This document shows positions 1 through 62,088 of a stretch of DNA of 64,000 nt, piece after piece (positions within the stretch are counted from its first letter, which is position 1; each line of letters begins with the position of its first letter). The notes below the pieces were generated by a model that was not told where the DNA came from, searched no databases, and worked only from the letters and a program-made list of their open reading frames with translations. The translations under genes were made by a program, and so were the position numbers. The stretch is from Symbiodinium natans. Lineage: Eukaryota; Sar; Dinophyceae; Suessiales; Symbiodiniaceae. The DNA is taken from NCBI GenBank assembly GCA_905221605.1, contig CAJNDS010002157.1:62001-126000 (forward strand), in the 5' to 3' direction.

Positions 1-3000
1 CATCCGTGGCACGTGCCACGTCGTAGTACATGTGCTGCAACGACTTTGCCTGGGCTGCCCCAGAGCTTACTGCTGGTTGGGAGGGATGAGGGAATGAGGG
101 TCCTATATATATATATATGTATATCCTTTGAGGGATTATATAGGGTACCTCAACAGTAAGAGGGAAAAGAGTCACCAGTTGCACAGAGGCATAAGTATCC
201 GATACTGTTGTCCCCCTTGAACCCAACCTGGGCGCACTGGAAACATTCCCAAAGAAACGGTAGCCTGACTACCCAGGTGCCCTTGTTGATAGCCTCGCAC
301 AGACCAAACATGTCTACTCCACCCCACAAACATGTGCTTGACGACCATGTCCAGAAGTGACAATACAGTGTACTACTATACAGCCGGGAGAAAGTTCTGA
401 ACCCCTGACTCTTCAGATGCGGTGCAGTCAAGTACTCCTGCATCAGGAACTGGACCTCCCCGATCTGCTTGCCGCACTCTCCCTCAACCCACAAGTTGAC
501 CAAGATGTTCGTGCGCTCCTGCGAAGAAAAGGAAGAGAGCGAGAGCAGGCAAGAAACTTGGGCAAGAAAAAAGCACGCTTTGCACCCAGACGATAGCACT
601 GGAATTTCCACTGCTCTGGACCCTAAGCCCCCACTCTCTCTCTCTCTCTCTCTATCTCTGTCTGTCAGCCGCAGTGCTCGTTCTAAGAAAAGTGCCAACA
701 TGGATGTATAAGCCCTAAAAAAACCATTCCTATACATCTTGTAATTAAACCCTAAACCCTAAACCCTAAACCCTAAACCCTAAACCCTAAACCCTAAACC
801 CTAAACCCTAAACCCATGGAACCCCAAAGCGCGCCTCGCCCTTGAGGCTCTCATCGGCAAACTTGTTCTTCACCCTGACGATCTTGAAGCGCTCCTTTTG
901 CCAGGGCTCTGGACTGGGATGAGGTTTAGGGTTTAGGGTTTAGGGTTTAGGGTTTAGGGTTTAGGGTTTAGGGTTTAGGGTTTAGGGTTTAGGGTTTAGG
1001 GTTTAGGGTTTAGGGTTTATAGATGAGGCTTTAGCTGTGGACCGGGCTTGCAGTCCACCTCGGCAGATAACTGTAGCCAGCCGCCTTATTTGTGCTGTGA
1101 GCATGTTAGAACCGCTAGAACCCGGAGCCGCTGCTTCCTCTCGCGTACGCAGTTTTGCTGGGAAGCCCGAACCCCAAACCTTTCTGACGATCCACACCTT
1201 GCAGCAGCAAAACCAAGATGCTGAGAGCCTAAGAGTAAACCTTCTTAAACCCTAAACTCCCTAACCCTAAACCCCATACCCCATACCCCATACCCCATGC
1301 AGCTGCGGACTCTCCGGCCTCGAGGGCTTGAAAGGCAAAGGCAAGCGCGAAGGGGTCTGCCGCATAGATCGTGGCGCGTAGGAAGTCGCAGACGTATCCT
1401 GAGATTCTGGGTTTAGGGTTCAATGTGTTCAGGGTCGAGGCTTTAGGGTTTAGGATTCAGGGTCTAGGGTTTAGGGTTCAGGCTAGGGTTAGGAGGGTCG
1501 AGGGTTTAGGGTTGTTAAAGTTTAGGGACCCTCCTGAGGTCACATCCCGGTTGCTTTCATAACTGCTCACAAGGGATCTTCGTCACCTCTTAGCCTAAGA
1601 GCGGAACACAGAGCTAGACAAAACTGCACGTTTCCATTCCCCGGAAAGCGTCGTGCTGACGGCCGCTCTGTCTTCTTCTCGTCCTCTTGGCATTGGGCCA
1701 TCCCAAAAGACAGCAGACTGGAAAGAATCTTGCCACTGGCTTTAACAAAATCAAGATACCAGGAATGTTAATGATAATAGCGGCAAAACAACAGGAGCGG
1801 CAGCTATGGAATCAGAAGCCGTAGGACGGCAGAGAAGTCCCTTGAAGGAGGAGGAAGGAAGCTGGAGCAACAAACGGTGCAAGCAAACGCCTTCTCGTAG
1901 TCACCCTGGATCTTTGCCAGGGCTCGCTCCTGGGGGGTTTAGGGGTTTAGGGGTTGAGGGGTTGAGGGTTGCAAAAAACACCAAAACAATTGGGACGCTT
2001 CAAATGCCCGCACCCTGCGGCCGTCCTTGCTTTTGATTGGGGCCACCAGCAGGCCCAAGTGCTTGCCGTACTCCGCACCAGGCTCGGGCTGCAACTGGTG
2101 CAAGGAGCTGTCCTTTGACTGGAGGAACTACGGCAAGTGAGGGAGGGGTTTAGTTTTTAGGGTTAGGGTTGGGGAACAAGTAACCAGGATCTGAGAAATT
2201 GCGGCAGGTGAGGGAGGGAGAGAGAGGCAGGGAGACTGAGACACAACGCGAGAGGGAGACAAACAAAAAGAGACAGGATGAAGGGTTGGAGATCCCGCGC
2301 TCACAGACCTTTCCGGGGCACAGCATGGCTTGCGTGAGACTGGGACCTAACTCCCTAGGCTGCGCTCCTAAGCCTGTGAGAACCAACCAAGCAGGTTGCT
2401 AGATCAACGAAGGCTGTAGAGGAACCTTCGAAAGATTGAGCTTCAGATTAAACCCTAAACCCTAGACCCGAAATCCTCAGTGATTGGGCCTATAACTGCT
2501 TGAGATCCGAACCCCGAAGGGGAGCTCGGAAACTACAAGCAGTGGCATCTTACGCTCTTAGTAGGGAGATTGGTGAACTATGGACTCAACTAGGTGTGCC
2601 TATATTGGGGTTTAGGGTTTAGGGTTTAACCGATAGTTCTCGGGTATGGTGCGTTTTGCTTCCGGACTCCCAAACCCTGAGCCCTATGTTCTGCCGCCAC
2701 AGAGGCCAAAGTGAGCTGCTCATCAAACTTCCTTAGCTGCTCCCGGCTGACGTCGTTGAGCCCCTGGACCATCTCGCTCAGCTGCCTCGCCAGCAGTTTG
2801 CAAGCAGAAGATGGAGAAATATGAAGAAAGGTGCAAAACCCTAAAGCCCTAAACCCTAAACCCTGAACTCAGAGCACCTCTTGAAGTCCGCCCGCAGCCA
2901 GCTTGCCGAAGCACATAAGGCATCCACGGCCGACTCCTTGGCGTATGCTGCCCTCACTGTACTGCAGAGCATCACGCACTCTACTAGAAGACCATCGCAT

Positions 3001-4560
3001 CTTCTGCCGCTACTTGCGAGTCGCCCTAAACCCTAAACCCTAAACTACTAACCCTAAACCCTAAACCCTAACCCTAAACCCTATAAACCCCAAACCCTAA
3101 ACCGCCCTTGCGAGCTTGAGCCCGAGCTTCTCGGCTGCCGCAGTGATGCTCTTCGAGAGCTGGCTGAACGGCCGCCTCCCGGGACACGGTCTCGATCATG
3201 CTCAGCTTCCTCATGCGGGCGCCGTCATCTTCTTCCTCTCAAGCATCTTTGTCAAGCTATGTTCATTATAGTGCCTATAATATCTATGTACATACATATG
3301 TATATATATATATATGCATATGTAGCATGTCTTTATACAGAACAGAATATTACATTCCACTAATCAAATAGATCTTTGCATATAAGCTGTATTTCAATGT
3401 AGTATAACATCATACAATACAGTACTATTCGATGATTGTAAAGAATAGCAAGAGCATTGCCGGCTGGACCCAGTCCTCGTAGGCTGTGCGCTGATCCACG
3501 AACCACTTCGCCAGGGGAGGCAAAGCCTTCTCCGCCAAGCTTTTCATCTCCTGCCAGGGAGGATGTTTCGGATGTGGCTGATATGGCTTTCTGGTGGCCA
3601 GCCACAAATGCGGCTGCACAGCACCCTTCTAATCTCTGCCCGCCCAGCATGCAAGAAAGTGGAAACGCACAAAACGTCGATCCGAATTGCAAAGGAAGAA
3701 ATTCCCTCTCCTCGAAGATCTGCTTCGATTGGTCCTGCAGGGCAGAAACCCAGCCCTCCAGCGATAAATCCAATCCCATTTAGCTCTCCCTTCCATGAAG
3801 CCGTGCCCCGCATGCCACGCCGCAAGTCTTCCGGGCCTCCTTACGCGCATACGCAGCCGCGAAGAGCTGCTTGTGTAGAGTGTGGAGCTTGTCCCGAACC
3901 GTCGGGTCGTCCAGGCGCTTCTTCAATGCATCCTTCAGCACTCGTGTCAGGTTGCTGGCACTGTCACCGGTTACAAGGAGGGGAAAGGGATGGGCATGTA
4001 GCGTGTGTGATTTCCAATTGCATGCTGCCGCATTAGGAGGGCTTGAGGGTGGCAAAACAAGACTTCGCATTGCTGGGGAGACTCTGAAGCACCTAGGACC
4101 TGGCCCAAAACCTAGCCGAAAACCTTCGAGACCTTCATTCTTACGGAAGTTGGCCTGTCCTGCTTGTCCATCAGCTTCTGTTTGCGCTTCAGGTCACCGA
4201 AGGCCACGAGGCTGTGCCCTTGGCAGCGTTCCCAAGTCTCTCAAAGTGCTCAGTTCCCGCCCAATCTGCTACATTACCTTGTCACATGGTTGTTCAGACA
4301 CCCTTCAGGACGGCTCGTATTGCGAGCAGGTGCAGCCCAGATGAGGCGTGCAGGATTCTGCACGCCTCCGCGTGCTACTGCGGCGACATGAGGTGAACTA
4401 ACCCCCTATATGCGGCCGTGGATGTAGGTTTGCCTGGCTGCAGGCGACGTGACTATAAGGGTACAATAGCCTCAAACATTCCTACACTCACTTGGCTAGG
4501 ACCTAGAAGGTCAGCACCTGTACGGTGGGCCCGGCAAACTCGTCGCGTCAAGAAAAGGTT
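1..4560 (-). CDS. Gene B copy 1: multi-exon protein with RelA/SpoT-like C-terminal half (partial)
   Basis: Exons read on the minus strand, 5' to 3': about 4300-4370, 4146-4262, 3817-3957 (LTRVLKDALKKRLDD), 3690-3770 (EGWVSALQDQSKQIFEER), 3606-3640, 3460-3550 (EMKSLAEKALPPLAKW), 3105-3235, 2878-2975 (AKESAVDAL), 2701-2785 (LSEMVQGLNDVSREQLRKF), 2010-2125 (GKHLGLLVAPIKSKDG), 1885-1932 (RALAKIQGDYEKA), 1302-1402 (YVCDFLRATIYAADPFALA), 828-912 (ERFKIVRVKNKFADESL), 395-522 (GKQIGEVQFLMQEYL), 270-312 and 1-65. The stop codon lies about 35 bases beyond the left edge, judged from copy 2. The order K-x-DY, DFLRA, RVKNKF, ILVN, GEVQ resembles a RelA/SpoT-like fold seen in large protist proteins; that link is from memory and catalytic residues were not verified. 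Introns at 3551-3605 (GT-AG) and 2786-2877 (GT-AG) keep phase. The N-terminal part is unrecognised. Confidence 0.6.
80..165. mobile_element. Degenerate palindromic element, GGTACCCTATATAATCCC type
   Basis: GGGATGAGGGAATGAGG, an AT repeat, then CCTTTGAGGGATTATATAGGGTACC matches parts of the inverted-repeat element at 29156-29308. Copy 2 at the same place (about 9196-9230) has only the left remnant. The element therefore sat in the ancestral unit and decayed, or inserted into copy 1. Confidence 0.5.
746..1019. repeat. Opposed telomere-type arrays flanking one exon
   Basis: Ten CCCTAAA units fill 746-815 and about fourteen TTTAGGG units fill 922-1019. The 106 bases between them hold the ERFKIVRVKNKFADESL exon of gene B. 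In copy 2 the equivalent arrays are much shorter (9933-9966 and 10085-10115), with an extra array at 10138-10252. Confidence 0.95.
1020..1300. other. Copy-1-specific segment with no clear exon
   Basis: 1030-1230 has short open frames on both strands (plus: CAVSMLEPLEPG; minus: KVWGSGFPAKLRTREE) but no counterpart at the same place in copy 2, so I do not call a gene. 1240-1300 is degenerate CCCTAAA and CCCCATA. Confidence 0.4.
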
Positions 4561-4636
4561 TATAGGGTTTAGGGTTGAGGGTTTAGGGTTCAGGGTTTAG
4601 GGTTTAGGGAACCCAATCCCAGTCCAGTCCCTAGCA

Positions 4637-7600
4637 CTACAGGCCGCGCGAGAGTCGATTTCGGAGCACGTCGAAACAGACGTAGGCCACGCCGCAGGTG
4701 GACCAAAGGAGGATCAAGACAAAGCACCTGATCCTGGGACTCAGCAACCCAGAACATACAGACTACGGAGAGGATATAATCGGTCGTAATCCATGCAGTG
4801 TCACGGTGTCCTTTTGTTCTCTGCTATATTTTCTTCAGACTCTTCAAGAGCGGCCGAGCATCATTTTGATCTCAGGGCTCAGGTACTCATCTCCAAAACC
4901 CCCGCGTGGCTTCGCCTCCTGCTCGTGCACGGCCACCCGGATGGCAAACAGGACCTGGCCACCACAAACAGGAGACCCTGAGCATCGCGAACCCCTAACA
5001 GTTTAGGGTCCGTAGAGTTAATCGTGGTTAAAAGATGTATAGGGTTAACAGGATTAATAGGGTTTATAAGGTTTACAGGGTTTATAGGGTTTAGGGTTGT
5101 TACACATCACCAAGATCAGCTGCGTGCCAGACCTTGACCGAGGCCACGATGGCCCAAGGCCAAAAGCTGCAACCCAAGGCCCACAGGGCCGTGTACCAGG
5201 AGAGTCCGAGGTCTGTGTAGAGCAGCTTCCTTATAGGGTGGGGGTAAAGTTTAGGGTATAGGGTTGGGGGTTCTGCCCTGAAGCATCACTCGCAAGTCTT
5301 CTAGGCTTCGGGCAAGAGCTGCACGGCAGAGAGCGTGGACACGAGGCAGCCGGCCAGGCATGCAGCCATGAAGCTTCGAAAGTTGTACTGCATGAAGAGG
5401 TCACGGTGCACCACCGTGGGGCAGCCCCCACCTCCTGCGCAAAGCTCGTCCATGGCATCATTGAAATAGGTCAGGCCATGGATGCTGCCTGTGGATTTCG
5501 TGGCCACGATGCCCAAGGCCTGACGTGTAAGAGGTTGGCAGCTTGAGAAGGTCCATAAGCAGGAGGCTAGTGCAAAAGTCACGCATGAGTTCGCATTCTT
5601 TACAAGCCAAGCAGCATTATCTGTCAAGAACACGTCCTTCATGTCTACGTCCACGTCTGGCCCACTCAGAACCTAGGATGGCCCAAAACCCAACCCTAAA
5701 GGGAAAATCTAAAAAAAGGTCCCAAAGGCCTCTTTAACCCAAAAAAGGAAAAACTCAAACGTCCCAAAGGCCTACCTGGGAACCAGGCCGGCCGCCAAGT
5801 CTACTGTTCGAAAGTCGCGGGCCCGGACGCTTGAGGAAGTGAGGGTCAAGCCGACGCCCCGCTTCTCATCGCCCAGCATGTCCACCTGAGGCTTCGTTGT
5901 ATGAGCGCTTATCAGGATGCTGTATTGAATATAACTCTTGACCCACAAATAAGTAAAACTTATCAGAGGCCACACAAAAGCCCCCCTTGAACAAAGGATG
6001 TCCACCTCGGTGAGCTGGAGAGCAGCATCTCTGGCGGTGATCCCTGCGTTGCAGTGCTTGAACATCGTGTTGGTGACTGTGGCCGAGATGTTGCCGTCCA
6101 TCACCACCGCCGTGCCCAGCACATCTTCCATCCTCACGTCGTGGAGCTCCAGAGTGCTACCATCCCCGGCAAAGGATTGCAGGCTCACGCCTGCGAGCAT
6201 GGCTCTCGTCACTGTCACCTTGTGCATGGAGAGCTTCCAGCCATTGGTAGCAATCTTGACCTTAGCTTCCCAACGACGGGCTTGATTCCCACGACTTGTC
6301 TGAACACAACAGCGAGCCGGCTCCGTCCTCTAAGGCCTCTGCGGCACTCCACACATTGCGCAACGTCACGTTATACATGGCGATGTCCAGCTGCGAGCCT
6401 GCAAGAAATGGAACAATGAAACCGAATCTGAGCCTGCAGCTTCCTTCCTCACGTGAAGGGACCGACCAGATCGTGCAGCTTCCAGGTTCAGGAAACCTAC
6501 CAGCAGGGCCTGGACATGCCTAAACTCAACTCTGGAGACAGCCTAGGCTTGAGGCCTACTGCACGCACAGCACACACGGCACTGAGGAGAGGGACCTTGA
6601 GACACCTGGACGAACGCGGTGCGTAGATTGAGGACCGTCAGGTCTCGCAGGTCCAATTTGCTGTCACGCCCACGGAAATCAATGGAGGTCTGCACGGTGG
6701 AGCTGTGCAAGGCCAAGGATGCATTGTCCATACCACCGAAATCCACACAGGCTCCCTCACACGGGCCCAACTGCGAGTTGCGAACTCTCACCTCTTTTGC
6801 CCTCCAGGCATCCAATCTGTATTGGCCGCTGAGTGTGCAGCTCTCCAGGCTCCAGGAGCCGCCGGATCCCGTAACCAAGCGCGTGTCATTTAGTGTTGAG
6901 CCGATGACATTCAGGGAATCTGAGTGGATGTCAGAGTTGTTCAGAGTGGAGTTGGTGACGGCCACTGCGTGTTCGGTATGTACGTCTACTTTTGAGGCCT
7001 TCACTTCGTGCATGATCGCCGGCCCATAGATCTTCACAGAAAGCAGCTCAAGCTCTCTGACCGTCAGCTTGGAAGACGAAGCCGATGAACCCACGTTCCA
7101 GTTCCGGATTTGGGTACCTGGCTCACCCTGGAGCTCCAGGCTTGCCGACTCGGGAATCCCAAAAACTTCATCTCCGCCATCATGGACCTCACTCCAGAGC
7201 AGTTTCCCCTGCAGAACTTGCAACTGCAAAAGACCTATAACCCACTGCGCAAGCCGAGGGGCTCCGGGCGCGAGCTTCACGCGCAAAGGTTCCGAGCTGT
7301 TTGGGAAGGTCAGATTGGAGAGCAGGGCGGTCAGGTTGATCACCTCCGACGACGTGGTGGGCCTCAGGGGGAACGCTTTCGCAGCTGAGAAATCAAGGAG
7401 CCTGTAAGACTTATAAACCCTCCAAACCCTGAAAAACCCTATGTAAACTTTATAAACCCGATACACCCTACAACAAACCATAGGGCAGATACCAGTATCA
7501 AGTCGAGGTGCTCAGGTGTGGGATCGGGCTCGGTACTCTCGACTTGCAAGGCCGCCGTCTCCGCGAGCTGCGTTTCCCGGTGTGCCAGGGCGAGCCCCGC

Positions 7601-7760
7601 GCCCGCACCCAAGATGAACAGATAAAGCAGCACGCCGTCGCTGCTTATCTGCAAGGCGGAGAAAAAATAAACAGAAAGGACACTACATGCACAGTTCTTA
7701 TGTGTCGCAGCGGTGCTGGGGGCCTTTCGCATCGTGCGAAGAGCCAGCATCACTAAGCCA
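4637..7760 (-). CDS. Gene A copy 1: secreted/membrane beta-helix-like protein
   Basis: Minus-strand exons: about 7510-7660 (signal anchor LYLFILGAGAGLALAHR), 6603-7355 (long exon), about 6508-6538, 6300-6396 (LDIAMYNVTLRNVW), 5985-6256, 5776-5885, 5302-5672, 5127-5219, 4837-4970 and 4637-4745, ending in TAG at 4637-4639. The long exon has repeated short V/L-x-V-x-N/D-S rungs and many N-glycosylation sequons (NLT, NST, NDT, NAS), as in right-handed parallel beta-helix proteins. The late exons hold hydrophobic segments (for example WALGCSFWPWAIVASVKVW and CFVLILLWSTCGVAYVCF), so the C-terminus is membrane bound. The intron after the anchor exon contains degenerate TTTAGGG repeats. Downstream lies gene B on the same strand, 80-100 bases away. 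The first exon is uncertain: copies 1 and 2 differ by one base near 7750. Function unknown. Confidence 0.65.
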
Positions 7761-8021
7761 GCTTTCAGTGCAGTCCTCAGTCACACCAGAATTGCAGGCT
7801 CTGTAGATGCCACTTCCACCTATCCTGCTGCTCCACACACATGGCCGTGATCCACACTTACGTACAAGCTACAGTATTCTCTGCGGATGGGAAGTGGGGA
7901 GGCTGGGAGGCGGAGGCTTGTGGGAGGCTGGAGAGGCTGGGCGACGGGAGGTCGACGCCACATCGGCTTGCCCTTGCATCCTGCCGCACCCAAGCGAACT
8001 AAACTGCAATATCTCTACACT

Positions 8022-8130
8022 TTGGGAGGTTCCCCCTTATACTACAGTCCTTAATAGGCATGATAGTAGGGGGTACTACAATCCCTATTCAGGAGACTGT
8101 TAGTAAAATGGTGAACAGAACATATCCCAA
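8022..8130. mobile_element. GGGATGTTCC inverted-repeat element (diverged copy)
   Basis: Starts TTTGGGAGGTTCCCCC and ends GAACATATCCCAA, with inner halves CAGTCCTTAATAG and CTATTCAGGAGACTG in inverted order. Orthologous to the element at 17452-17558 in the second copy, so it predates the duplication. Confidence 0.7.
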
Positions 8131-8560
8131 CCCAAAACCCTAAACCCTAAACTAAATCAGTCAAAGGCTCACATGAACAGGGAATTTGACCAACCACACG
8201 GGGGAGTTGGCATTGGCTCAGCGACCCGGCTTGAGCCGATCTCGGCCATGTGCAGGTTAGCGAAAAGCTGATGGCATGAACCCAGCTTTGCATTTAGGGT
8301 TTTAGGGTTCAGGGTTCAGGGTTCAGGGTTCAGCTTGTGGTAGTGGAGGGGGCCTTATTGACTTGGACAGCTTTGTCTTGCACAGCTTTTCTGCAGCAGG
8401 TACCGGCATCGGCTGCAAACTCTCTCGACTGGCATCTTGCAAGGCAACACGCAGGGCGTTTGCTGGAAGGCGCATGAGCTTCCGAGCTTGTGGCCGCTCC
8501 AAGGCGCGCAAGCCCAAATTCTACAGCTCTAAGCCCTGGACCCTGCAACACTCCGACAAC
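8131..8560 (-). other. Upstream flank of gene A copy 1, candidate 5' exons
   Basis: 8190-8260 reads HMAEIGSSRVAEP on the minus strand. Copy 2 (17,660-17,740) differs by a 3-base indel that keeps the frame, which favours coding. 8340-8530 (minus, LRALERPQARKLMRLPAN) is also duplicated at 17,830-18,000, but single-base indels break the frame between copies, so it may be untranslated. 8131-8160 and 8293-8333 are CCCTAAA- and TTCAGGG-type repeats. Confidence 0.35.
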
Positions 8561-8717
8561 CCTAAAAACAAATCCCCTTAAAACGGCCTTAAAGAGCTGC
8601 GTTAACCAAGTATTTTCCTTACTAATTCCCTTAAGATGCGTACAAGCGACTCTTATACTACATAATGCCTAGGGAGGCCTAACCCTAAACCCCTGCTTAT
8701 GGTTTAGGGTTTAGGGC

Positions 8718-9087: not shown

Positions 9088-12000
9088 CTAGCGGAAGATC
9101 GGCTTGTCAAAAAGCTCCTGGGCATCCGTGGCACGTGCCACGTCGTAGTACATGTGCTGCAAAGACTTTGCCTGGGCTGCCCCAGAGCTTACTGATGGTT
9201 GGTAGGGGATGAAGGAAGTAGGGTCCTGAGAAAGCAGGCACAGTCGGGACATAAGAGGCACACGTATCCACCATTGTTGATCCCCTTGAACCCAACATGC
9301 GCGTACAACCCTAAACCCTCAACCCTAAACCCCAAACCCTAAACCCCATAACCATAAACCCGACCCTAGACCCTAAATCCTAAACCCTAAACCCTAAAAC
9401 CCTAAGAAAAGCTAGCCTGACTACCCAGGCACCCTTGTTGATAACCTCGCACAGACCAAACATGTCTATTCAACCCGACAAAAGCCTCATCCACTAGTAG
9501 CTCGTCTGCTTAGAACCCATGTGCAGAAGTGATACTACAGTATAATACTTTACAGCCTGCTGTTGCTGCTTCTACGGAAGGAGAAAGTTCTGAACCCCTG
9601 ACTCTTCAGATGCGGGGCAGTCAAGTACTCCTGCATCAGGAACTGGACCTCTCCGATCTGCTTGCCACACCTTCCCTCAACCCACAAGTTGACCAAGATG
9701 TTCGTGCGCTCCTGCGAAAGAAGGAAGAGAGCAAAAGGCAGGCAAGAAAAAAGGACGACTGAGAAACATGCTTAACACCTTGACGCTAGCCTCTGTGACT
9801 CTCTCCATCTCTTGCGTCCTCAGGAGGTCCAGCCAGATGCAATGCACGCTCGAAGAACAAAGCCACTAAACCATTCCTATAAGCTCCCTTTCGAACCTGG
9901 AAGCTGCTTCAGGCTAGTCCTGCACCTCCCTAACCCTAAACCCTAAACCCTAAACCCTTAAACCCTCACAAAGCCATCAAACTCCTAGGCGCGCCTCGGC
10001 TTTGAGGCTCTCGTCGGCAAACTTGTTCTTCACCCTGACGATCTTGAACCGCTCCTGTGTCAGGGCTCCGACGATGGCCTCTTGTAGGGTTTAGGGTTTA
10101 GGGTTTAGGGTTTAATCGCTCACACTCGGACAAGCCAGGTTTAGGGTTTAGGGTTAGTAGTTTGGGGTTTAGGGTTTAGGGTTTAGGGTTTAGGGTTTAG
10201 GGTTTAGGGTTTAGGTTTCAGGGTTTTGGGGTTTAGGGTTCAGGGTTTAGGGTTACCCTCGAAAGAGGCTCTTTACCCGACTTTGGAGTAGACCCTGGAA
10301 CAAAAGTATATATACGTTTAGGTACAAGTAGCTTTAATAGGAACTCAGAACCAATAACAATGTGTTAAAGTATAGTACTCCAAAACCCAGCTTATGCTAT
10401 TATAACCCTTAAAAGGAAGCTCTTTATAGGGCTGTTACCGGGTTATAGGTAGTTATATCTCTTACTAGCTACCATGAACCTCCAAGTATGGCCGTCAAAA
10501 GAGGCTGGGGGGGTTTTCGGGCCCTTTTTGCACATGCTGGTCCGGCTCTTTGGGGCGTAGCTGTTATGTCCACGTCGGTAGATGGGCTTAAGCCCTGGTG
10601 CAGTGAGGTGTATGGGGTTAAGGGTTTAGGGTTTTGGGTTTAGCCCCAAACCCTAAACCCCAAGCCCAAACCCCATAGCCCATGCAGCAGCGGAATCGCC
10701 GGCCTCCAGGGCTTGAAATGCAAAGGCAAGCGCGAAGGGGTCAGCCGCATAGATCGTGGCGCGCAGGAAGTCGCAAACATATCCTGAGATGCTGGGCTTA
10801 GGGTTTCGGTTTAGGGTTTCGGTTCCTGGTTCAGGGTCTAGAGTTTAGGGTTTTTAAAGTTTAGGGATCCTCCTGAGGCCACATCCCGGTTTCTCACACG
10901 CTGCTCAAAGGGATCTTCGTCCCTTCTTCGTCTAACAAGTGGAGTTCAGCGAACCAAACAAAACTGCACGTTTCAATTCTCCATCCAGCAGAAGGAAAGC
11001 GTCGTGCTGATGGCCGCTCTGTCTTCTTGTCGTCCTCTTGGGGGCCATCCCAAGTCGAAAGACAGCAAACTGGACAAGAATCTTTGCCACTGGCTTTACA
11101 AAGATACTAGGAAATTCCACGACAACAATGAAAAAAAGCAGTAGGAGCAGCAGCAGCTGTGGAACCTTGAAGGAAGGAAGGAAGAGCCGGAGCAACAACA
11201 GGGTTTAGGGTTCAGGGTTCAGGGTTTAAGGTTTAGGGAGTGCATGCAGATGCCTTCTCGTAGTCACCCTGGATCTTTGCCAGGGCTCGCTCCTGGGCAC
11301 TCGGCACGGTGCAATAGGGCATCTTGAACAGACAGGGGGAGCAACAAAAGTGAGAATTTGGGTTTAGGGTTTGGGGTTTGGGGTTTAGGGTTTAGGAAAA
11401 GCAAACAAAGGTTGGGACGCTCCAAATTCCCACACCCTGCGGCCCGTCCTTGCTTTTGATGGGAGCCACCAGCAGGCCCAAGTGCTTGCCATACTCCGCG
11501 CCAGGCTCGGGCTGCAACTGGTGCAAGGAGCTGTCCTTTGAGTGGATCTGAGAAACTACGGCCGGTGAGTGAGGGGGTTGAGGGTTTAGGCTTCAGGGTT
11601 TAGGGTTGGGGAACTGAGAAACTACAGCTGGTGAGGGAGAGAGGCAGGGAGACCGAGACGCAACGAGATAAACAAAATGAGACAGGTTGAAGGGTTGGAG
11701 ACCCTGCGCTCACAGACCTTTCCGGGGCACAGCATGGCTTGTGTGGGCCAGGGACCTAACTCCCTATGTTGCACTCACATGTCGCCGCAGATTGCTAGAT
11801 CAACAAAGGCTGTAGAAGGAACCTTCGAAAGATTCAAGCGAGGGTGGCCGGGGGAGAGAACTGCATCCGACTTCGTAGGAAATTGGAAGGGGTACGGTAC
11901 CTTTCTGCTTGCGGCCTCCCCCCTCGATTGCGCTTTAAGGGATTTCGTGGGCCTCAACCCTAAGTTCTGCCACAGTGGCCAAAGTGAGCTGCTCATCAAA

Positions 12001-13950
12001 CTTCCTTAGCTGCTCCCGGCTGACGTCGTTGAGTCCCTGGACCATCTCGCTCAGCTGCCTGGAAAGCAGCTTGCAGGCAGAAGGCTTCAAGGCCACAACG
12101 GTGCAAAACCCTAAACCCTAAACCCTATAGCCTAGCCCGAAACCCTAAACCCTAGCTAGGCCCTAGCCCTAAACCCTAAACTCAGCGCACCTCTTGAAGT
12201 CTGCCCGGAGCCAGCTTGCCGAAGCACGCAAGGCATCCACGGCCGACTCCTTGGCACAAGCCGGCGTCACCGTACTCTAAACCCCAAACCCTAAAGCCCT
12301 AAACCCTATATAGCACAGTATACTCTACAACCCCCATCATATCGCACAACCGACTACAAGGCCATCGCATCTTCTGCCGCTACTTGTGAGCTTGAGCCCA
12401 AGCTTCTCGGCTGCCGCAATGATGCTCTTCGAGAGCTGGCTGCAAGGCCGCCTCCCGGGACACGGTCTTGATCATGCTCAGCTTCCTCATGCGGGCGCCG
12501 TCATCTTCTTCCTCTCAAATGCGGACATGACCAGCACACATGTATATACTGTATATACAGATACACACACATGATTCATACATATGTATTTATGTTTTTA
12601 AAAATGTCATCCTGTAAGTCTATAATATTGTAGTTTTCCGCGCGAGGAGAAGAGTTCCGGGCGAGGAGAAGAGTTGAGGTTAAAATCTAACAACTCCACA
12701 CCGAAGGTGGGGAACAATGATTTTTAAGAATAGCAAGAGCATTTCCGGCTGGACCCAGTCCTCGTAGGCTGTGCGCTGATCCACGAACCACTTCGCCAGG
12801 GGCGGCAAAGCCTTCTCCGCCAAGCTTTTCATCTCCTGCCAGGGAGGAGAAGGCTTCTGAACTTCTCTTGCAGGGTTTAGGGTTTAGGGTTTAGGGTTTA
12901 GGGTTTAGGGTTTAGGGTTTAGGGTTTAGGGTTTAGGGTACAAATGTGGCTGCACAGCCAGGCTTCGAATCTCTGCCCGTCCAGGATGCAAGACAACGGA
13001 CAGCAATCCACTTCAGGGCACGAAGGTTTAGGGTTTAGGGTTTAGGGTGTAGGGTTTAGGGTTTAGGGTCCGAATAGGAAGCGATCCCTCTCCTCGAAAA
13101 TTTGCTTCGATTGGTCCTGCAGGGCAGAAACCCATCCTTCGAGCAATAACAAAACATCACTGTTAACCGCAGCTGCTGCTCCCTTGCACGAAGCCGTTCC
13201 CCGCATACCCCGCCACAAGTCTTCCGGGCCTCCTTACGCGCATACGCAGCCGCGAAGAGCTGCTCATGTAGAGTGTGGAGCTTGTCCCGAACCGTCGGGT
13301 CGTCCAGGCGCTTCTTCAATGCATCCTTGAGCACTCGTGTCAGGTTGCTGTCACTGTCACCGGTTACAAGGAGGGGAAAGGGATGGGCATGTAGCGTGTG
13401 TGATTTCCAATTGCATGCTACCGCATTAGGAGGGCTTGAGGGTGGCAAAACAAGACTTCGCATTGCTGGGGAGACTCTGAAGCACCTAGGACCTGGCCCA
13501 AAACCTAGCCCAAAACCTTCGAGACCTTCATTCTTACGGAAGTTGGCCTGTCCTGCTTGTCCATCAGCTTCTGTTTGCGCTTCAGGTCACCGAAGGCCAC
13601 GAGGCTGTGCCCTTGGCAGCGTTCCCAAGTCTCTCAAAGTGCTCAGTTCCCGCCCAATCTGCTACATTACCTTGTCACATGGTTGTTCAGAAACCCTTCA
13701 GGACGGCTCGTATTGCGAGCAGGTGCAGCCCAGATGAGGCGTGCAGGATTCTGCACGCCTCCGCGTGCTACTGCGGCGACATGAGGTGAACTAACCCCCT
13801 ATATGCGGCCGTGGATGTGGGTTTGCCTGGCTGCAGGCGACGTGACTATAAGGGTACAATAGCCTCAAACATTCCTACACTCACTTGGCTAGGACCTAGA
13901 AGGTCAGCACCTGTACGGTGGGCCCGGCAAACTCGTCGCGTCAAGAAAAG
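9088..13950 (-). CDS. Gene B copy 2: multi-exon protein with RelA/SpoT-like C-terminal half (complete 3' end)
   Basis: Second copy of the gene at 1-4560, with the 3' end present: the last exon (about 9088-9185) reads QHMYYDVARATDAQELFDKP and ends in TAG at 9088-9090. Other exons: 9415-9465, 9590-9715 (GKQIGEVQFLMQEYL), 9985-10078 (ERFKIVRVKNKFADESL), 10690-10790 (YVCDFLRATIYAADPFALA), 11240-11325, 11420-11545, 11695-11745 (TQAMLCPGKVCER), 11968-12058 (LSEMVQGLNDVSREQL), 12191-12270, 12385-12520, 12740-12835 (EMKSLAEKALPPLAKW), 12942-12990 (RFEAWLCSH), 13080-13165, 13205-13360 and 13535-13770. The intron 12836-12941 is GT-AG and carries a 66-base CCCTAAA array (in sense) absent from copy 1. 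A one-base difference from copy 1 near 11440 shifts the end of the GKHLGLLVAPIKSKDG exon, so either the donor lies before it or one copy is damaged. Confidence 0.6.
12873..12938. repeat. TTTAGGG array inside a gene B intron, copy 2 only
   Basis: Nine and a half perfect units. In sense orientation the donor is GTA directly joined to CCCTAAA, and the acceptor is TCCCTGGCAG. The orthologous copy-1 intron (3551-3605, 55 bases) has the same exon borders and no array. Confidence 0.95.
13024..13069. repeat. TTTAGGG array in a second gene B intron, copy 2 only
   Basis: Six units between the EGWVSALQDQSKQIFEER exon and the RFEAWLCSH exon. Copy 1 has ordinary sequence there (3640-3690). Confidence 0.9.
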
Positions 13951-14029
13951 GTTTATAGGGTTTAGGGTTGAGGGTTTAGGGTTCAGGGTTTAGGGTTTAG
14001 GGAACCCAATCCCAGTCCAGTCCCTAGCA

Positions 14030-17000
14030 CTACAGGCCGCGCGAGAGTCGATTTCGGAGCACGTCGAAACAGACGTAGGCCACGCCGCAGGTGGACCAAA
14101 GGAGGATCAAGACAAAGCACCTGATCCTGGGACTCAGCAACCCAGAACATACAGACTACGGAGAGGATATAATCGGTCGTAATCCATGCAGTGTCACGGT
14201 GTCCTTTTGTTCTCTGCTATATTTTCTTCAGACTCTTCAAGAGCGGCCGAGCATCATTTTGATCTCAGGGCTCAGGTACTCATCTCCAAAACCCCCGCGT
14301 GGCTTCGCCTCCTGCTCGTGCACGGCCACCCGGATGGCAAACAGGACCTGGCCACCACAAACAGGAGACCCTGAGCATCGCGAACCCCTAACAGTTTAGG
14401 GTCCGTAGAGTTAATCGTGGTTAAAAGATGTATAGGGTTAACAGGATTAATAGGGTTTATAAGGTTTACAGGGTTTATAGGGTTTAGGGTTGTTACACAT
14501 CACCAAGATCAGCTGAGTGCCAGACCTTGACCGAGGCCACGATGGCCCAAGGCCAAAAGCTGCAACCCAAGGCCCACAGGGCCGTGTACCAGGAGAGTCC
14601 GAGGTCTGTGTAGAGCAGCTTCCTTATAGGGTGGGGGTAAAGTTTAGGGTATAGGGTTGGGGGTTCTGCCCTGAAGCATCACTCGCAAGTCTTCTAGGCT
14701 TCGGGCAAGAGCTGCACGGCAGAGAGCGTGGACACGAGGCAGCCGGCCAGGCATGCAGCCATGAAGCTTCGAAAGTTGTACTGCATGAAGAGGTCACGGT
14801 GCACCACCGTGGGGCAGCCCCCACCTCCTGCGCAAAGCTCGTCCATGGCATCATTGAAATAGGTCAGGCCATGGATGCTGCCTGTGGATTTCGTGGCCAC
14901 GATGCCCAAGGCCTGACGTGTAAGAGGTTGGCAGCTTGAGAAGGTCCATAAGCAGGAGGCTAGTGCAAAAGTCACGCATGAGTTCGCATTCTTTACAAGC
15001 CAAGCAGCATTATCTGTCAAGAACACGTCCTTCATGTCTACGTCCACGTCTGGCCCACTCAGAACCTAGGATGGCCCAACCCTAAAGGGAAAATCTAAAA
15101 AAAGGTCCCAAAGGCCTCTTGAACCCAAAAAAAGAAAAAACTCAAACGTCCCAAAGGCCTACCTGGGAACCAGGCCGGCCGCCAAGTCTACTGTTCGAAT
15201 GTCGCGGGCCCGGACGCTTGAGGAAGTGAGGGTCAAGCCGACGCCCCGCTTCTCATCGCCCAGCATGTCCACCTTATTAGGCTTCGTTGTATGAGCGCTT
15301 CTAAGGATGCTGTACTGAATATAACTCTTGACCCACAAATAAGTAAAACTTATCAGAGGCCACACAAAAGCCCCCCTTGAACAAAGGAGGTCCACCTCGG
15401 TGAGCTGGAGAGCAGCATCTCTGGTGGTGATCCCTGCGTTGCAGTGCTCGAACGTCGTGTTGGTGACTGTGGCCGAGATGTTGCCGTCCATCACCACCGC
15501 CGTGCCCAGCACATCTTCCATCCTCACGTCGTGGAGCTCCACAGTGCTACCATCCCCGGCAAAGGATTGCAGGCTCACGCCTGCGAGCATGGCTCTCGTC
15601 ACTGTCACCTTGTGCATGGAGAGCTTCCAGCCATTGGTAGCAATCTTGACCTTAGCTTCCCAACGACGGGCTTGATTCCCACGACTTGTCTGAACACAAC
15701 AGCGAGCCGGCTCCGTCCTCTAAGGCCTCTGCGGCACTCCACACATTGCGCAACGTCACGTTATACATGGCGATGTCCAGCTGCGAGCCTGCAAGAAATG
15801 GAACAATGAAACCGAATCTGAGCCTGCAGCTTCCTTCCTCACGTGAAGGGACCGACCAGATCGTGCAGCTTCCAGGTTCAGGAAACCTACCAGCAGGGCC
15901 TGGACATGCCTAAACTCAACTCTAGAGACAGCCTGGGCTTGAGGCCTACTGCACGCACAGCACACACGGCACTGAGGGGAGGGACCTTGAGACACCTGGA
16001 CGAACGCGGTGCGTAGATTGAGGACCGTCAGGTCTCGCAGGTCCAATTTGCTGTCACGCCCACGGAAATCAATGGAGGTCTGCACTGTGGAGCTGTGCAA
16101 GGCAAAGGATGCATTGTCCATACGACGGAAATCCACACAGGCTCCCTCACACGGGCCCAACTGCGAGTTGCGAACTCTCACCTCTTTTGCCCTCCAGGCA
16201 TCCAATCTGTATTGGCCGCTGAGTGTGCAGCTCTCCAGGCTCCAGGAGCCGCCGGATCCCGTAACCAAGCGCGTGTCATTTAGTGTTGAGCCGATGACAT
16301 TCAGGGAATCTGAGTGGATGTCAGAGTTGTTCAGAGTGGAGTTGGTGACGGCCACTGCGTGTTCGGTATGTACGTCTACTTTTGAGGCCTTCACTTCGTG
16401 CATGATCGCCTGCCCAAGGATCCTCACAGAAAGCAGCTCAAGCTCTCTGACCGTCAGCTTGGAAGACGAAGCCGATGAACGCACGATCCAGCTCCGGATT
16501 TGGGTGCCTGGCTCGCCCTGGAGCTCCAGGCTTGCCGGCGTGGGAATCTGAAAATATTCACCTCCGCCATCATGGACCTCACTCCAGAGCAGTTTCCCCT
16601 GCAGAACCTGCAACTGCAAAAGGCCTCTAACCCACTGCGCAAGCCGAGGGGCTCCGGGCGCGAGCTTCAGGCGCACAGGCTCCGAGCTGTTTGGGGGGAA
16701 GGTCAGATTGGAGAGCAGGGCGGTCAGGTTGATCACCTCCGACGAAGTGTCGGGCCTCAAGGTGGAACACTTTCACAGTGAGAAATCCAGGAGCTTATAA
16801 ACCCTACAAAAAACTTTGTAAACCCTAGAAACACAAAAAAAGACCCTACATAAACCTTGTAAACACTCTATAAACCCTTAAAAAACCCCGTAGGGCAGAT
16901 ATCAAGTCGAGGCGCTCAGGTGTGGGATGGGGCTGGGTACTCTCGACCTGCAAGGCCGCAGTCTCCGCGAGCTGCGTTTCCCGGTGTGCCAGGGCGAGCC

Positions 17001-17170
17001 CCGCGCCCGCACCCAAGATGAACAGATAAAGCAGCACGCCGTCGCTGCTTATCTGCAAGGCGGAAGCAATTAAGCAGAAAGGATGGGGGATGCACAGCTT
17101 AGGAGGTCATTTCGTCTGTGTCGCAGCGGTGCTGGGGGCCTTTCGCATTGTGCGAAGAGCCAGCATTCAC
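14030..17170 (-). CDS. Gene A copy 2: secreted/membrane beta-helix-like protein
   Basis: Duplicate of 4637-7760. Exons: about 16906-17055 (anchor), 15990-16755 (long beta-helix exon), about 15895-15925, 15690-15798, 15375-15645, 15163-15272, 14694-15065, 14520-14612, 14230-14365 and 14030-14138; stop TAG at 14030-14032. The intron 15066-15162 has a GT donor after VPR and a CCTAG acceptor. From about 13,353 to 16,400 it is almost identical to copy 1 (I count only scattered single-base changes), whereas the first third of the long exon differs by many substitutions that keep the frame (for example EYFQIPTPASLELQ against EVFGIPESASLELQ). That pattern indicates a translated gene under constraint in both copies. 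Function unknown; a cell-surface or secreted role is inferred only from sequons and hydrophobic segments. Confidence 0.65.
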
Positions 17171-17451
17171 TAAGCCAGCTTTCAGTGCAGTCCTCAGTCA
17201 CACCAGAACTGCAGGCTCTGTAGATACTACTTCCACCTATCCTGCACGCTACGCCGCACGTATGGCCGTGATCCATACTTACAGTGCAAGATTTGAGTAC
17301 AAGCTACAATACTCTGTGCTGATGGGAACTGGAGAGGCTGGGAGGTGGGAGCTTGTGGGAGGCTGGGGAGGCTGGGCGGCGGGAGGTCGACGCCACATCT
17401 GCTTGCATCCTGCTGCACCCAAGCGAACTTTACGGCAATGCCTCTACACAG

Positions 17452-17558
17452 TGGGATGTTCCCCCTTACACTAACAGTCCTAATAGGGGGATTATAACTG
17501 GTGGGGGCACTATAATCGCCATTAAGGACTGTTAGTATAAGGGGGAACATATCCCAAC
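17452..17558. mobile_element. GGGATGTTCC inverted-repeat element
   Basis: Left end GTGGGATGTTCCCCCTTAC, right end GGGGGAACATATCCCAAC; internal ACAGTCCTAATAG pairs with TTAAGGACTGT. A partial right half (AAGGACTGTTAGTATAAGG to ACATCCC) is repeated at 17,596-17,627 after a short CCCTAAA run, in copy 2 only. Confidence 0.85.
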
Positions 17559-18159
17559 CTAAAACCCTCAACCCTAAACCCTAAACCCTAAACCCAAGGA
17601 CTGTTAGTATAAGGGGGAACATCCCAGACTAAATCAATCCAAGGCTCACATGGACAGGGAACTTGACCAACCACACGGGGGAGTTATTGGCTCAGCGACA
17701 CGGCTTGAGCCAATCTCAGCCATGTGCAGTTTAAGGAAAGCTGATGGCATGAACCCAGCTTTGGGTTTAGGGTTTAGGGTTCAGGGTTCAGGGTTCAGGG
17801 TTCAGCTTGTGGTAGGGTAGGGGGGCTCAAAGAAGACTTGGACAGCTTTGTTTTGCACAGCTTTTCTGCAGCAGTGTGCCGCCATCGGCTGCAACTCTCT
17901 CGACTGGCATCTTGCAAGGCAACACGCAGGGCGTTGCTGGAAGGCGCATGAGCTTCCGAACTTGTGGCCGCTCCAAGGCCCGCAAGCCCACCAAATCCTA
18001 CAGCCCTAAGCCAGCCCTGAACCCTGCAACGCTCCGACAACCCTAAAACCAAATCCCCTTAAAAGGCCGTTAAAAGACCTGAGTTAACCAAGCGTTTTTC
18101 ATCCTTTGGAATGCATACAAACCACTTTTTATACTACCTAGGGAGGCCTAAGCCCTAAG

Positions 18160-19060
18160 CCCTAACCTAAACCCTAAACCCTAAACCCTGAACCCTAAAC
18201 CCTAAACCCTAAACCCTAAACCCCTGTTCCTTTTGCCTGGCAAGCCTCTGCCAGATGGGAGGGGGGCCTGAAGCTTCGCTTCCAGGCCACCGCCGACGCG
18301 CGGGGCGCAGGTTTATGAGGGTTTTAGGCAGTTTTAGGGTTTGGGGTTTAGGGTTTAGGGTTTCGGGTTTGGGGTTTAGGGTTTAGGGTCTAGGGTTTGG
18401 GGTTTAGGGTTTAGGGTTTGGGGTTTAGGGTTTGGGGTTTAGGGTTAGGGGCTTAGGGTTTGGGATTCAGGGTTGCGTCTGGAGTCTGTAATTACTTGGG
18501 TTAAGGGTTCCCCACCACCACCCGTGTGGTTATCCTGTGGTTCATGGTCCGTGGTTCACGACGTTCATGGTGGGTTCGACGTTGCTCGGCGCTGTCGCTG
18601 GATTCAGGGTTAGTCGTTGGGGCTTGGGGTTTTCACTCTACCCCCCGCGGTTCATGGCGGGTTCCGGGTTTAAATTGGGGTTTCGGGCCTGCGTCCCAAT
18701 TCAAAAGAAGGTGGTGCTGAGCATCTGCAAAAATGGCCGGCTCAGCCCGGACACCACGGGCTTCTAGGCAAGTCGTCCGCGACTTGCCTTGAGTCATGCA
18801 GGTTTAGGGGTTTAGGGGTTTAGGGGTTTAGGGGTTTAGGGGTTTAGGGTTTATAGGGCTTATAGGGTTTAGGGTTTAGGTCTTGTTAAGGCTGCCCATG
18901 GAACCCTACTGCATCGCACAAGCATATATCACAAAAAGAACAAAAAAAGCCACTCAGGCTTCAACAGCAAATGCGCTTGGGTACTCCTCAACACAGTCTG
19001 GTATGATCTCATGCCGCCTAAAGCTGGGAACCATCAAAAGCCCTTGAAAGCTCCCTAAAC
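18160..19060. other. Telomere-type and degenerate GGTTTAGG sequence, no gene seen
   Basis: 18,160-18,220 is CCCTAAA; 18,310-18,470 alternates TTTAGGG with TTTGGGG; 18,800-18,880 is GGTTTAGGGG and related. Between them, 18,480-18,770 is G/T-rich degenerate sequence (GGTTCATGG words) with open frames that look like translated repeats. I see no supported exon. Confidence 0.6.
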
Positions 19061-21520: not shown

Positions 21521-23615
21521 CCCTAAACCATCGTTATAACCACAGCAACAAGTCGATGATGATGTAGGTACCCCAAACCTATAAGGTTAAGTTTGACAGG
21601 TTTAGGGCTTAAGATTCAGGCATTAAAACGTAAACCCGCAATGAAACCTAAACCCTAACCGTTCAACCCGATAGAGTTAAGGTTAAGCGGTTAGGGTTTA
21701 AGATTTAGGTGTGTTTAAACTTTAAACCTAAACCCATAGAGATTTAACCTTAAGGGTTGAAAGTTCGGGCAGTTAAACCTTAACCCTGAACCGTTTAGGG
21801 TCAGAACCCTAAAACCCGACAGGGCTCTACAAGCAACAAAGGTTTTGACCCTAAAGGGTGCTGAAGGTATACATGCCCAGACCTTAGGTTTTCTTGAACC
21901 ATTCAACCCTACAGGGTTTAAAGGCTTAGGGTTTAAGGTTTAGGCATTACCTGTACGATAGAACCTTAAAGCCCTATAGGGCTTGGGGCTTAGATCCCTA
22001 AACCTTGAATCCCATAGGGCTATGCCTACGTTTGTAGGGCTTTCTTCCCGGTGACGTGAGAATACTGTGAGCAAATGTCCTTTTCACTACTTCCTGGGAT
22101 TCAAAATATAAACAAACCATATCGTTATATGATAGAATTCAGGTTTTGCTTATCGGGGGATGGTTGCTTGAGCTATCTTAGGTAAGGTAAGGATTTTAGG
22201 ATAGAGGTTTTGTTTTGCTTTTTGGGGCGTGATGGGGTTACCCTCATTTTCTTATAGGCTATTTACATGTATATAAATCAAACCCTGAACCATAGTTATA
22301 ACCGCAGCAAGAAGTTATAACCTTGTCATAAAGAAATTTCCGCAGAGCTCGTCAAATCCGATCATGATGTAGGCGCCCCAACCCTAGAGGGTTAAGGTTG
22401 ACAGGTTTAGGGTTGAAGATTGAGGCATTTAAACCTAAGCCGGCAATTCAACCTAAACCCGAACCTTTAAACCCTATAGAGTTAAGGTTTAAGGGGTTGG
22501 GGTTTAGGACTTAGGCATTTAAAACGAAAACTCAAAAAGTTTCAATCTTAAGTGTTTGAAGTTCGGGCATTCAGACCTTAACCCTGATTCGTTTAGGGTC
22601 AGAACCGTGAAACCCTATAGGGCTCCCAAAGGTTCAAAGATTTTAACCCTAAAGGGTACTGAAGGTATACATGCCCTTAGGTTGTCGAACCATTGAACCC
22701 TATAGGGTTTAACGGTTTAGGTTTAAGGTTTGGGCATTAATTACCTATACAATAGAACCTTAAAACCCCAGAGCGCTTGGGGCTCAAATCCCCAAACCTT
22801 GAATGCCATAGGGTTATGCCTACGTTTGTAGCGCTTTCGTCCCGGTGACGCGAGAATACTGTGAGCAAATGTCCTTCCACTACTTCATGGGATTCAAAAT
22901 ATAAACAAAGAGGATAATTCAAGTTTTGCTTATCGGGGGATGGTTGCTGGAGCTATCTTAGGTAAGGTAAAGATTTTAGGATAGAGTTTTTGTTTTGCTT
23001 GAGCTATCTTAGGTAAGGTAAAGATTTTAGGATAGAGGTTTTGTTTTGCTTTTTGGGGCGTGATGGGGTTACCGTTACCCTCATTTTCTTATAGGCTAAT
23101 TTACATGTATATCAATCAAATCCTGAACCATAGTTATAACCGCAGCAAAAAGTTATAACCTTGTCATGTGCATATATCCGCAGAGCTCGTCACTTTCACT
23201 ACTTGCTGGGATTCAACATATACACAAACTATATCGTTAAATGATGGAATTCAGGAATTGCGTATCGGGGGATGGTTGCTTGAGATATTTTAGCTAAGGT
23301 AAAGTATTTGGGATATTTCGCTTGTTGGGGGCGTGATGGGGCTCCCCTTATTCTTATGGGTTTACATAAGTGTATAAAAATCAAACCCTAACCCATAGTT
23401 ATAACCACAGCAATAAGTTATAACCTTGTCATATAGAAATTTCCGCAGAGCTCGTCAAATCCGATCTTGATGTAGGCGCCCCAACCCTAGAGGGTTAAGG
23501 TTGACAGGTTTAGGGTTTAAGATTGAGGCACTTAAACCTAAGCCGGCAATTCAACCTAAACCCGAAGCTTTAAGCCCTATAGAGTTAAAGTTTAAGAGTT
23601 AGGGTTTAAGGCGCA
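21521..23615. repeat. Degenerate tandem array, about 0.8 kb unit, four starts
   Basis: The phrase AACCATAGTTATAACCGCAGCAA recurs (with changes) at about 21,526, 22,288, 23,125 and 23,388; intervals are roughly 762, 837 and 264 bases. Each full unit continues with a GATGTAGG..CCCCAACC block, GGTTAAGGTTGACAGG, and a CAAATGTCCTT..CACTACTTC..GGGATTCAA block followed by TATCGGGGGATGGTTGC. No coding frame persists across units. The interspersed GGTTTAAGG words are telomere-like but decayed. A 58-base direct repeat (GAGCTATCTTAGGTAAGG) is nested at about 22,950-23,040. Confidence 0.8.
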
Positions 23616-23764: not shown

Positions 23765-24270
23765 CAGGAGCACCATTAAACCATCAAACCATTAAACCAA
23801 TAAACCATTAAACCATTGAACCAATGGTTTCCGCCTTATGAGAATCCCCTATTCTATTAAACCATTAAACCATTAAACCAATGGTTTCCCCCTTATGAAA
23901 ATCCCTTAAACCATTAAGCCATTAAACCATTAAACCATTAAGCCATTAAACCATTAAACCATTAAACCAATGGTTGCCCGCCATGAAAATGGTTTAATGG
24001 TTTAGGGGATTCTCATATGGGGGAAACCATTGGTTTAATGGTTTAATGGTTTAATGGTTTAGGGGATTTTCATAAGGGGGAAACCATTGGTTTAATGGTT
24101 TAATGGTTTAATGGTTTAATGGTTTAATGGTTTAATGGTTTAGGGGATTTTCAGAAGGGGGAAACCATTGGTTTAATGGTTTAATGGTATGGTTTAATGG
24201 TTTAATGGTTTAGGGGGGAGACCATTGGTTTAATGGTTTGAGGGATTCTTGGTTAGATGGTTTAAGGGAA
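23765..24270. repeat. Large inverted array of an ACCATTAA octamer
   Basis: The left arm (23,765-23,970) is tandem ACCATTAA with spacers CCAATGGTTTCCCCCTTATG; the right arm (23,985-24,260) is tandem TTAATGGT with the same spacers in reverse complement (GGGGGAAACCATTGG). The arms could pair as a hairpin of about 200 bp. The octamer is one base longer than the telomeric heptamer AAACCCT. Followed by (TA)n at 24,311. Confidence 0.9.
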
Positions 24271-28855: not shown

Positions 28856-28886
<31 letters not shown>

Positions 28887-42765: not shown

Positions 42766-43089
42766 CTCGGGGTGTGAAAGCTTCGTCCTGCTGTTTTGGG
42801 CCTTTGTAGGCTGCAACATCAGGGTGCTATCGAGTGGAAGGACACAGCCAAAGATATGGATGATGAATGAACCTACCACTTGGCAGATATTCATACTTTC
42901 CTGCAAACCGTCCAAGACAGTGCAGTTGGATTCGGTGGCATTTGGGTGTTTCCTAAAAACAGGTACCCCAAGAGACAAAAAATCACCCTTGGCAGGCTGC
43001 AAAATTCAAATTTTCAGCTACTTTATTAAGAGGCCTATGAAACCCCAACGGCTATGGATCGAAGCTCGGAGGAAAGAACCAAAGACACC

Positions 43090-62000: not shown

Positions 62001-62088
62001 TGGATTTAGGGTTCCCATCTGGAAGAGACTGACGATGAGGCAGCCCGTTTAACAGCTCGCCCTCAAAAAGCGCATGAACCCCCTAACC

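Follow-up and report, generated by a model that had tools for sequence, protein, structure and literature searches.

How did a perfect run of telomere-type heptamers come to lie in an intron of one copy of a tandemly duplicated gene, when the corresponding intron of the other copy has none? The locus belongs to a 64-kb stretch of the Symbiodinium natans genome (C1845:62001-126000, hereafter the window), part of a 1.5 Mb contig in an assembly of 759 Mb and 2543 contigs. The window carries two tandem copies of gene B.

Two telomere-type arrays share one intron of gene B copy 2

Gene B has eight protein matches, of which the named ones are all from Symbiodinium (two from S. pilosum and one, P0005, from S. 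natans); pieces of P0005 are encoded at the paralogous locus C1819, two with identities of 100% and 97.6%. Pfam returned no family matches for the joined gene B exons and weak or no matches for eight frames, and the plasmid collection gave no match. In P0001-P0004 the residues IFQ run directly into EM or DM with nothing between (in the style ...ATEIFQ-EMKDLAEE...), and the E2/E4 junction is also contiguous in P0006 (TFD-EM) and, by eye, in P0008 (VFN-AM). P0005 begins downstream of this junction and P0007 lacks the region. The paralogous loci C458 and C1819 agree with the homologues, and the sequence between the two arrays (12942-13023) is therefore intronic. This rejects the three-exon model of the first-pass annotation, which had read that segment as an exon and had given introns of 106 and 55 bases; homology instead gives one intron of 257 nt.

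12761-12835, minus strand: exon E4, EMKSLAEKALPPLAKWFVDQRTAYE
12836-13092, minus strand: intron E2-E4 of gene B copy 2, 257 nt, GA-AG, with both arrays; its junction IFE/EMK fits homologues and paralogues
12872-12939, minus strand: perfect (CCCTAAA)n in sense, 68 bp, 36 nt upstream of the acceptor
12942-13023, minus strand: segment formerly read as an exon; homology places it in the intron, and the copies differ there by a 1-base indel
13025-13069, minus strand: second (CCCTAAA)n in sense, in the same E2-E4 intron, 23 nt past the donor
13093-13116, minus strand: 3' part of exon E2, ...DQSKQIFE
3551-3710, minus strand: intron E2-E4 of gene B copy 1, 160 nt, without array

In copy 2, exon E2 ends in ATTTTCGAG and exon E4 starts with GAGATGAAAAGC, and the single intron GAGAGG...CCTGGCAG joins both in frame. 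By homology the donor is GA (GAG/GAGAGG in the copies), not a GTA joined straight to CCCTAAA as had been proposed. The equivalent junctions are CAG/GCGGCA...GCGGCAG/GAGATG at C458 and CAG/GCGCAG...CGGCAG/GATATG at C1819, and a review describes GC and GA donors as usual in this family (PMC11453091). Better conservation of 12942-13023 between the copies than of the rest of the intron probably misled the exon reading; segments E3, E8 and E11 are conserved between copies, yet were dropped as exons from the gene model.

The first heptamer run is indeed perfect, although it measures 68 bp and not the 66 first reported. The second, given earlier as 13,024-13,069, was recovered at 13025-13069 with 94% matching, but it shares the E2-E4 intron with the first instead of having an intron of its own. 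The copy-1 counterpart does have the same TCCCTGGCAG acceptor end and no array, while the exon borders assigned to it are contradicted by homologues and paralogues. Array bases number 113 in the copy 2 intron (45 + 68 bp), 0 in copy 1 and 0 in C458, and none of the arrays listed for C1819 falls in its E2-E4 intron. Since the introns of copy 1, C458 and C1819 are all without array, the most parsimonious history would be a gain in copy 2 after duplication, a polarity drawn from comparison of the paralogues rather than from a tree of them; the absence of the E2-E4 arrays from these three loci supports the original proposal that heptamer arrays were gained in introns after gene duplication. The array at 12872-12939 is not a clean insertion, as 68 bp of array and ~23 nt replace ~40 nt of copy 1.

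Array presence and absence between the tandem copies

1-8692: tandem copy 1; unit of ~9.4 kb that starts upstream of the window
9123-18162: tandem copy 2; core 13316-16500 is 96-100% identical to copy 1 (200-column windows), flanks diverged

The duplication has a core (3923-7118 versus 13316-16508) with 96-100% identity by 200-column windows, and flanks in which identity per window ranges from ~48% to 94%. Because this ~3-kb core is near-identical and the flanks are diverged, the core may have been homogenised by local gene conversion. Within the diverged flanks the exons are conserved, the introns much less so.

Alignment of the flanks yielded six copy-specific arrays, one in copy 1 (3024-3103) and five in copy 2 (9307-9405, 11200-11238, 12277-12308, 12872-12939 and 13025-13069), together with eight array positions common to both copies (copy-1 positions 746, 923, 1409, 1935, 2146, 2836, 8129 and 8293). 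These counts cover arrays with both flanks alignable, 746 and 923 being included despite aligning well on one side only. The third case of the first-pass annotation, near 11,199-11,240, was confirmed: 11200-11238 is inserted relative to copy 1, and the same intron of C458 has no array. Empty related sites are present for 3024-3103 and 11200-11238 (in the other copy) and for the E2-E4 intron (in three paralogous introns).

746-815, minus strand: perfect array, TTTAGGG in sense, copy 1, 19 nt past the donor of exon E13
923-1019, minus strand: perfect array, CCCTAAA in sense, copy 1, 28 nt upstream of the acceptor of exon E13
11200-11238, minus strand: array specific to copy 2, intron E10-E12, 15 nt past the donor; 3 bases between the same flanks at the copy-1 site
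11575-11607, minus strand: array common to copy 1 (2146-2170); the copy-2 flanks form a 30-bp imperfect direct duplication (26/30)

Abundance of interstitial arrays in the window and the genome

Wraparound local alignment found 163 TTTAGGG-/CCCTAAA-type arrays in the window, split 86 to 77 between the two orientations and totalling 12.4 kb of the 64 kb; a scan of one mononucleotide shuffle of the window, using the TTTAGGG unit only, found zero. Genome-wide, the 21-mer (CCCTAAA)3 occurs at 1,184,385 + 1,185,204 places (~2.37 million, a total that takes in true telomeres), against only 33 + 41 places for a reversed-pattern control 21-mer. The density of the telomeric 21-mer is 3,120/Mb in the genome and 3,422/Mb in the window, which is thus close to the mean. 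Of 12 readable stretches on other contigs (L015-L027, with the all-N L022 left out), 9 carry arrays and 3 do not. At 1.44 to 3.82 21-mers per array, the values counted in three samples, the genome total corresponds very roughly to 0.6-1.7 million arrays.

The telomere unit of dinoflagellates is given as TTTAGGG in a review (PMC11453091). The arrays match the telomere repeat of the organism at internal sites, at least 62 kb from both ends of C1845, and so represent interstitial telomeric sequence; being internal and in both orientations, they do not fit a subtelomere or true telomere.

Several other repeats were observed in the window. A dispersed MITE-like terminus, ATTAAGGACTGTTAGTATAAGGGGGAACATCCCAA, occurs in both orientations (17452-17626, 51270-51300, 60908-61133, 62981-63085 and 8030), and at 17524-17626 two direct copies of it flank a heptamer array. 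A repeat of ~102 bp is present in three copies that are 95-98% identical (52352-52453, 52979-53080 and 60301-60401). At 23772-24265, octamer arrays (ATTAAACC / GGTTTAAT) and a 57-bp higher-order unit make up a large imperfect inverted repeat, next to which may be listed the tandem direct repeats of 21554-23608 (76-87% identity in aligned pieces) and the recurring poly-T/poly-G (or poly-C/poly-A) junction tracts (28872-28908, 32376-32425, 43088-43117, 51544-51592 and 62087-62125).

Position and orientation of arrays relative to splice sites

We examined 35 introns from five paralogous gene copies (10 each from copies 1 and 2, 9 from C458 and 3 each from C1819 and C1815), 23 of which hold 40 arrays. 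Twenty-one of these arrays are no more than 30 nt from a donor or an acceptor, compared with 11.5 at random placement, and in introns of at least 200 nt the figure is 15 of 32 compared with 5.5 expected. Orientation is also uneven. Within 60 nt of donors there are 11 TTTAGGG (G) and 6 CCCTAAA (C) arrays, and within 60 nt of acceptors 2 G and 10 C (Fisher p 0.02); when all 40 are assigned to the nearer splice site, donors have 15 G and 8 C, acceptors 5 G and 12 C (p 0.054), although both p values are optimistic because paralogues share arrays and the counts are non-independent. Counter-orientation arrays near donors (the six C) include 13025-13069 and 11200-11238. At acceptors, an array reaches to within 2 nt at C1815 (...CCCTAAACCCAG/GAC) and to within 5 nt at C458. 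(CCCTAAA)n has no AG, is pyrimidine-rich and contains CTAAAC branch-like motifs, and may for these reasons be tolerated just before an acceptor; (TTTAGGG)n has one TAG per unit. The C1815 paralogue (C1815:623801-627600, L031) has array-rich introns, with up to 842 of 857 nt of one intron in array under a looser array call.

In a larger sample, a C-array followed by a 60-160 bp spacer and a G-array was seen 120 times and the reverse order 54 times (CC 42, GG 44; p 6e-7). When the window and the gene B loci are left out, the counts are 88 and 41 (p 4e-5), whereas for spacers of 200-1000 bp the order bias flips (30 C-spacer-G versus 82 reverse). The C-spacer-G spacers have a GC content of 0.580 compared with 0.545 in other spacers (gene B introns 0.498, exons 0.599) and a period-3 signal of 1.37 compared with ~1.0 (p 0.001). 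This higher GC and stronger periodicity suggest that many of these spacers are exons. For example, at the gene B loci 6 of 8 contain an exon (E9, E12 and E13, each twice), while the other 2 are within introns. Canonical donor and acceptor motifs are not enriched in the C-spacer-G stretches. Among the 120 spacers 6 pairs are similar, 3 of these pairs being paralogous exons of gene B, and the spacers do not form one repeat family; as they are unrelated, we reject a single family of elements sharing a core and having telomeric terminal inverted repeats.

We postulate from these patterns that exons are often bracketed by outward-pointing telomere repeats, probably through selection on splicing. 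A wider proposal would make telomere-repeat insertion, probably by telomerase, a major source of intron sequence, and the repeat a two-sided splice-site module: TTTAGGG would follow donors, CCCTAAA would precede acceptors, and pairing of their RNA copies could bridge the intron. We consider this wider proposal speculative and on balance doubtful.

Insertion junctions and array ends

One array in copy 1 offers a clean insertion when compared with copy 2.

3024-3103, minus strand: array, TTTAGGG in sense, copy 1, 4 nt past the inferred E5 end; clean insertion versus copy 2
3013-3020: 8-bp target duplication CTTGCGAG (+ strand), first copy
3107-3114: 8-bp target duplication CTTGCGAG, second copy
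12383-12390: empty site in copy 2 with a single target copy, CTTGTGAG

In sense the filled locus reads CTCGCAAG-GGC-array-CGA-CTCGCAAG, where copy 2 has a single CTCACAAG (alignment; gap -8). Since the array sits at the inferred end of exon E5, splice-site sequence was apparently duplicated by its insertion. This is the one case in hand of an empty site with a target-site duplication (TSD); for the array with a 15-bp TSD at L036:1996, a genome search for the empty site returned the filled locus only.

Direct repeats at array edges were then counted in a sample of 29 sources and 309,689 bases (17,600 of them N), in which L001 had been chosen because it holds an array; the duplicate window arrays at 13300-17300 were left out. 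Expected counts derive from pairs mismatched between arrays. First, edge repeats of at least 8 bases were found in 28 of 615 own pairs, compared with 4.7 expected and a maximum of 11 in 200 shuffles. Second, with mismatches allowed, 17 of 612 arrays scored at least 16 compared with 0.36 expected. Lastly, abutting duplications with a score of at least 9 flank 18 of 526 isolated arrays (3.4%) compared with 0.76 expected, and 508 were under this threshold. The 3024-3103 case has 8 matching bases only and is outside the 18, of which four or five appear repeat-like by eye (poly-G, pyrimidine-repeat, heptamer-like) and are to be discounted. Clean examples include 10-bp duplications at L012:5031-5075 and L012:8935-8968, an exact 15-bp duplication at L036:1996-2091, and longer ones at L033:7777-7833 (29/30) and L023:1999-2039 (36/39). 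Lengths of the abutting duplications vary from 10 to 39 bp, and a single transposase is therefore unlikely. Deletions can be scored only where empty sites exist, and the junction test used here is one of duplications. The array at L012:8935-8968, which is perfect, lies near a frame resembling the start of a coding region.

The array ends are also non-random. In 243 clean perfect arrays the G-strand 3' ends are GGG 81, GGT 44, GTT 38, AGG 26, TTT 22, TTA 18 and TAG 14, compared with ~35 each if uniform (p 1e-17), and simulated random fragments give about equal shares. At the 5' ends (GGG 71, AGG 55, n=279), mutation of edge units can account for the start-phase bias. Mutation does not explain the 3' bias, because A is the base most often altered among internal single changes (23/60) and edge mutation would favour breaks at A, a preference not seen at 3' ends. 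Bias on one side only agrees with synthesis that stops preferentially at one point, and does not by itself name the enzyme. In the earlier suggestion of break repair by telomerase, break repair gains support from the 8-bp duplication with its empty site and from the excess of abutting duplications; telomerase may be the source of the arrays, and the end-phase bias points to it indirectly.

A proposed mechanism for array gain and its alternatives

We propose, at a probability of about 0.6, that short interstitial telomeric sequence was gained in an existing spliceosomal intron after tandem duplication, by break repair and then a splicing filter. Staggered breaks would be filled in, giving flanking duplications of variable length, and telomeric repeats would be added or captured before the ends join, most likely by telomerase. 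Splicing would then sort the surviving insertions, with CCCTAAA tolerated before acceptors and TTTAGGG commoner near donors than near acceptors. On our best reading, telomeric repeats have been inserted far more often than reported for mammals.

An alternative that we regard as unlikely is retroinsertion, in which telomeric RNA would be copied into nicked sites by a reverse transcriptase of LINE or Penelope type, leaving target duplications of variable length. The variable duplications and the one-sided end-phase bias fit target-primed reverse transcription as well as they fit telomerase, and reverse transcriptase genes are reported in the S. natans genome (PMC8045281). However, the arrays showed no shared element sequence, and the 120 C-spacer-G spacers do not make up a repeat family. 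The longest duplications also count against retroinsertion, as 30-39 bp is long for target-primed reverse transcription.

Less probable again is slippage, by which arrays would grow in place from chance heptamers and the differences between copies would be expansions or contractions. Common arrays are of unequal length in the two copies (105 versus 60 bp at 1409/10794; 70 versus 35 at 746/9932), as slippage would have it. Slippage alone is nonetheless rejected by the flanking target duplications, and the empty site 12383-12390, which is without a heptamer seed, contradicts it for 3024-3103. Under break repair, slippage may still resize arrays after their insertion.

We give little credence to introner-type mobile elements spread by DNA transposition. 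Introners have been recently active in dinoflagellates and can have TSDs, of 4 bp with terminal inverted repeats in Symbiodinium microadriaticum (PMC11453091, PMC9860276), and MITE-like repeats abut one array here (17562-17595). Against them, the duplication lengths vary, the C-spacer-G spacers are not one family, and the gene B arrays sit in introns at positions common to paralogues; nine such positions, E2-E4 through E13-E14, are common to copies 1, 2 and C458, so the creation of new introns that characterises introners was not found in gene B. Finally, an assembly or misjoining artefact is very improbable, for although draft assemblies can misstate the length of arrays, arrays occur in those 9 of 12 stretches elsewhere, in both orientations, with decay and distinct flanks, and target duplications are not among the errors expected of assembly.

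Relation to known systems

Insertion at repaired breaks has a parallel in mammals, for which 83 human, 79 chimpanzee, 244 mouse and 250 rat interstitial telomeric sequences are reported; target duplications are given for 4.6% of classified rodent and 16% of classified primate loci, the rest being mostly deletions and unmodified sites (Nergadze et al. 2007, PMC2246262). The S. natans arrays resemble these short sequences at breaks, as reported there, in being telomere-identical and internal, in having empty related sites, and in a minority with duplications (here 18/526, 3.4%, detectable and abutting). They differ in their estimated number (~0.6-1.7 million), in the heptamer TTTAGGG, and in the clustering of the gene B arrays near splice sites with a preferred orientation.

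With dinoflagellate introners, as those papers present them (Gozashti et al. 2022, PMC9860276; Roy et al. 2023 via PMC11453091), the arrays have in common that they are intron-lengthening insertions with possible TSDs, at times located at splice sites, in the same algal group. Unlike introners as so described, the arrays showed no constant TSD, no sequence family was seen among the C-spacer-G spacers, and the insertions found here enter existing introns. Intron gain in Daphnia reportedly proceeds by staggered-break repair, with short direct repeats of variable length flanking the insert. The flanking direct repeats of variable length are a likeness to that account; here, in contrast, the filler is telomeric repeat and the insertions shown lie in existing introns. 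Among the literature searched, which was limited to open-licence papers, telomeric-repeat insertion in dinoflagellate introns was not found, and the word "telomer" occurs 0 times in the searched text of the S. natans genome paper (PMC8045281).

With perhaps 0.6 to 1.7 million loci, compared with 79 to 250 per mammalian genome, S. natans would offer a natural set for studying telomeric insertion at internal breaks. The finding touches on the ways in which introns with GT, GC and GA donors change in dinoflagellates, and it leads to a claim that can be put to the test, namely that splicing sorts a simple repeat by its orientation.
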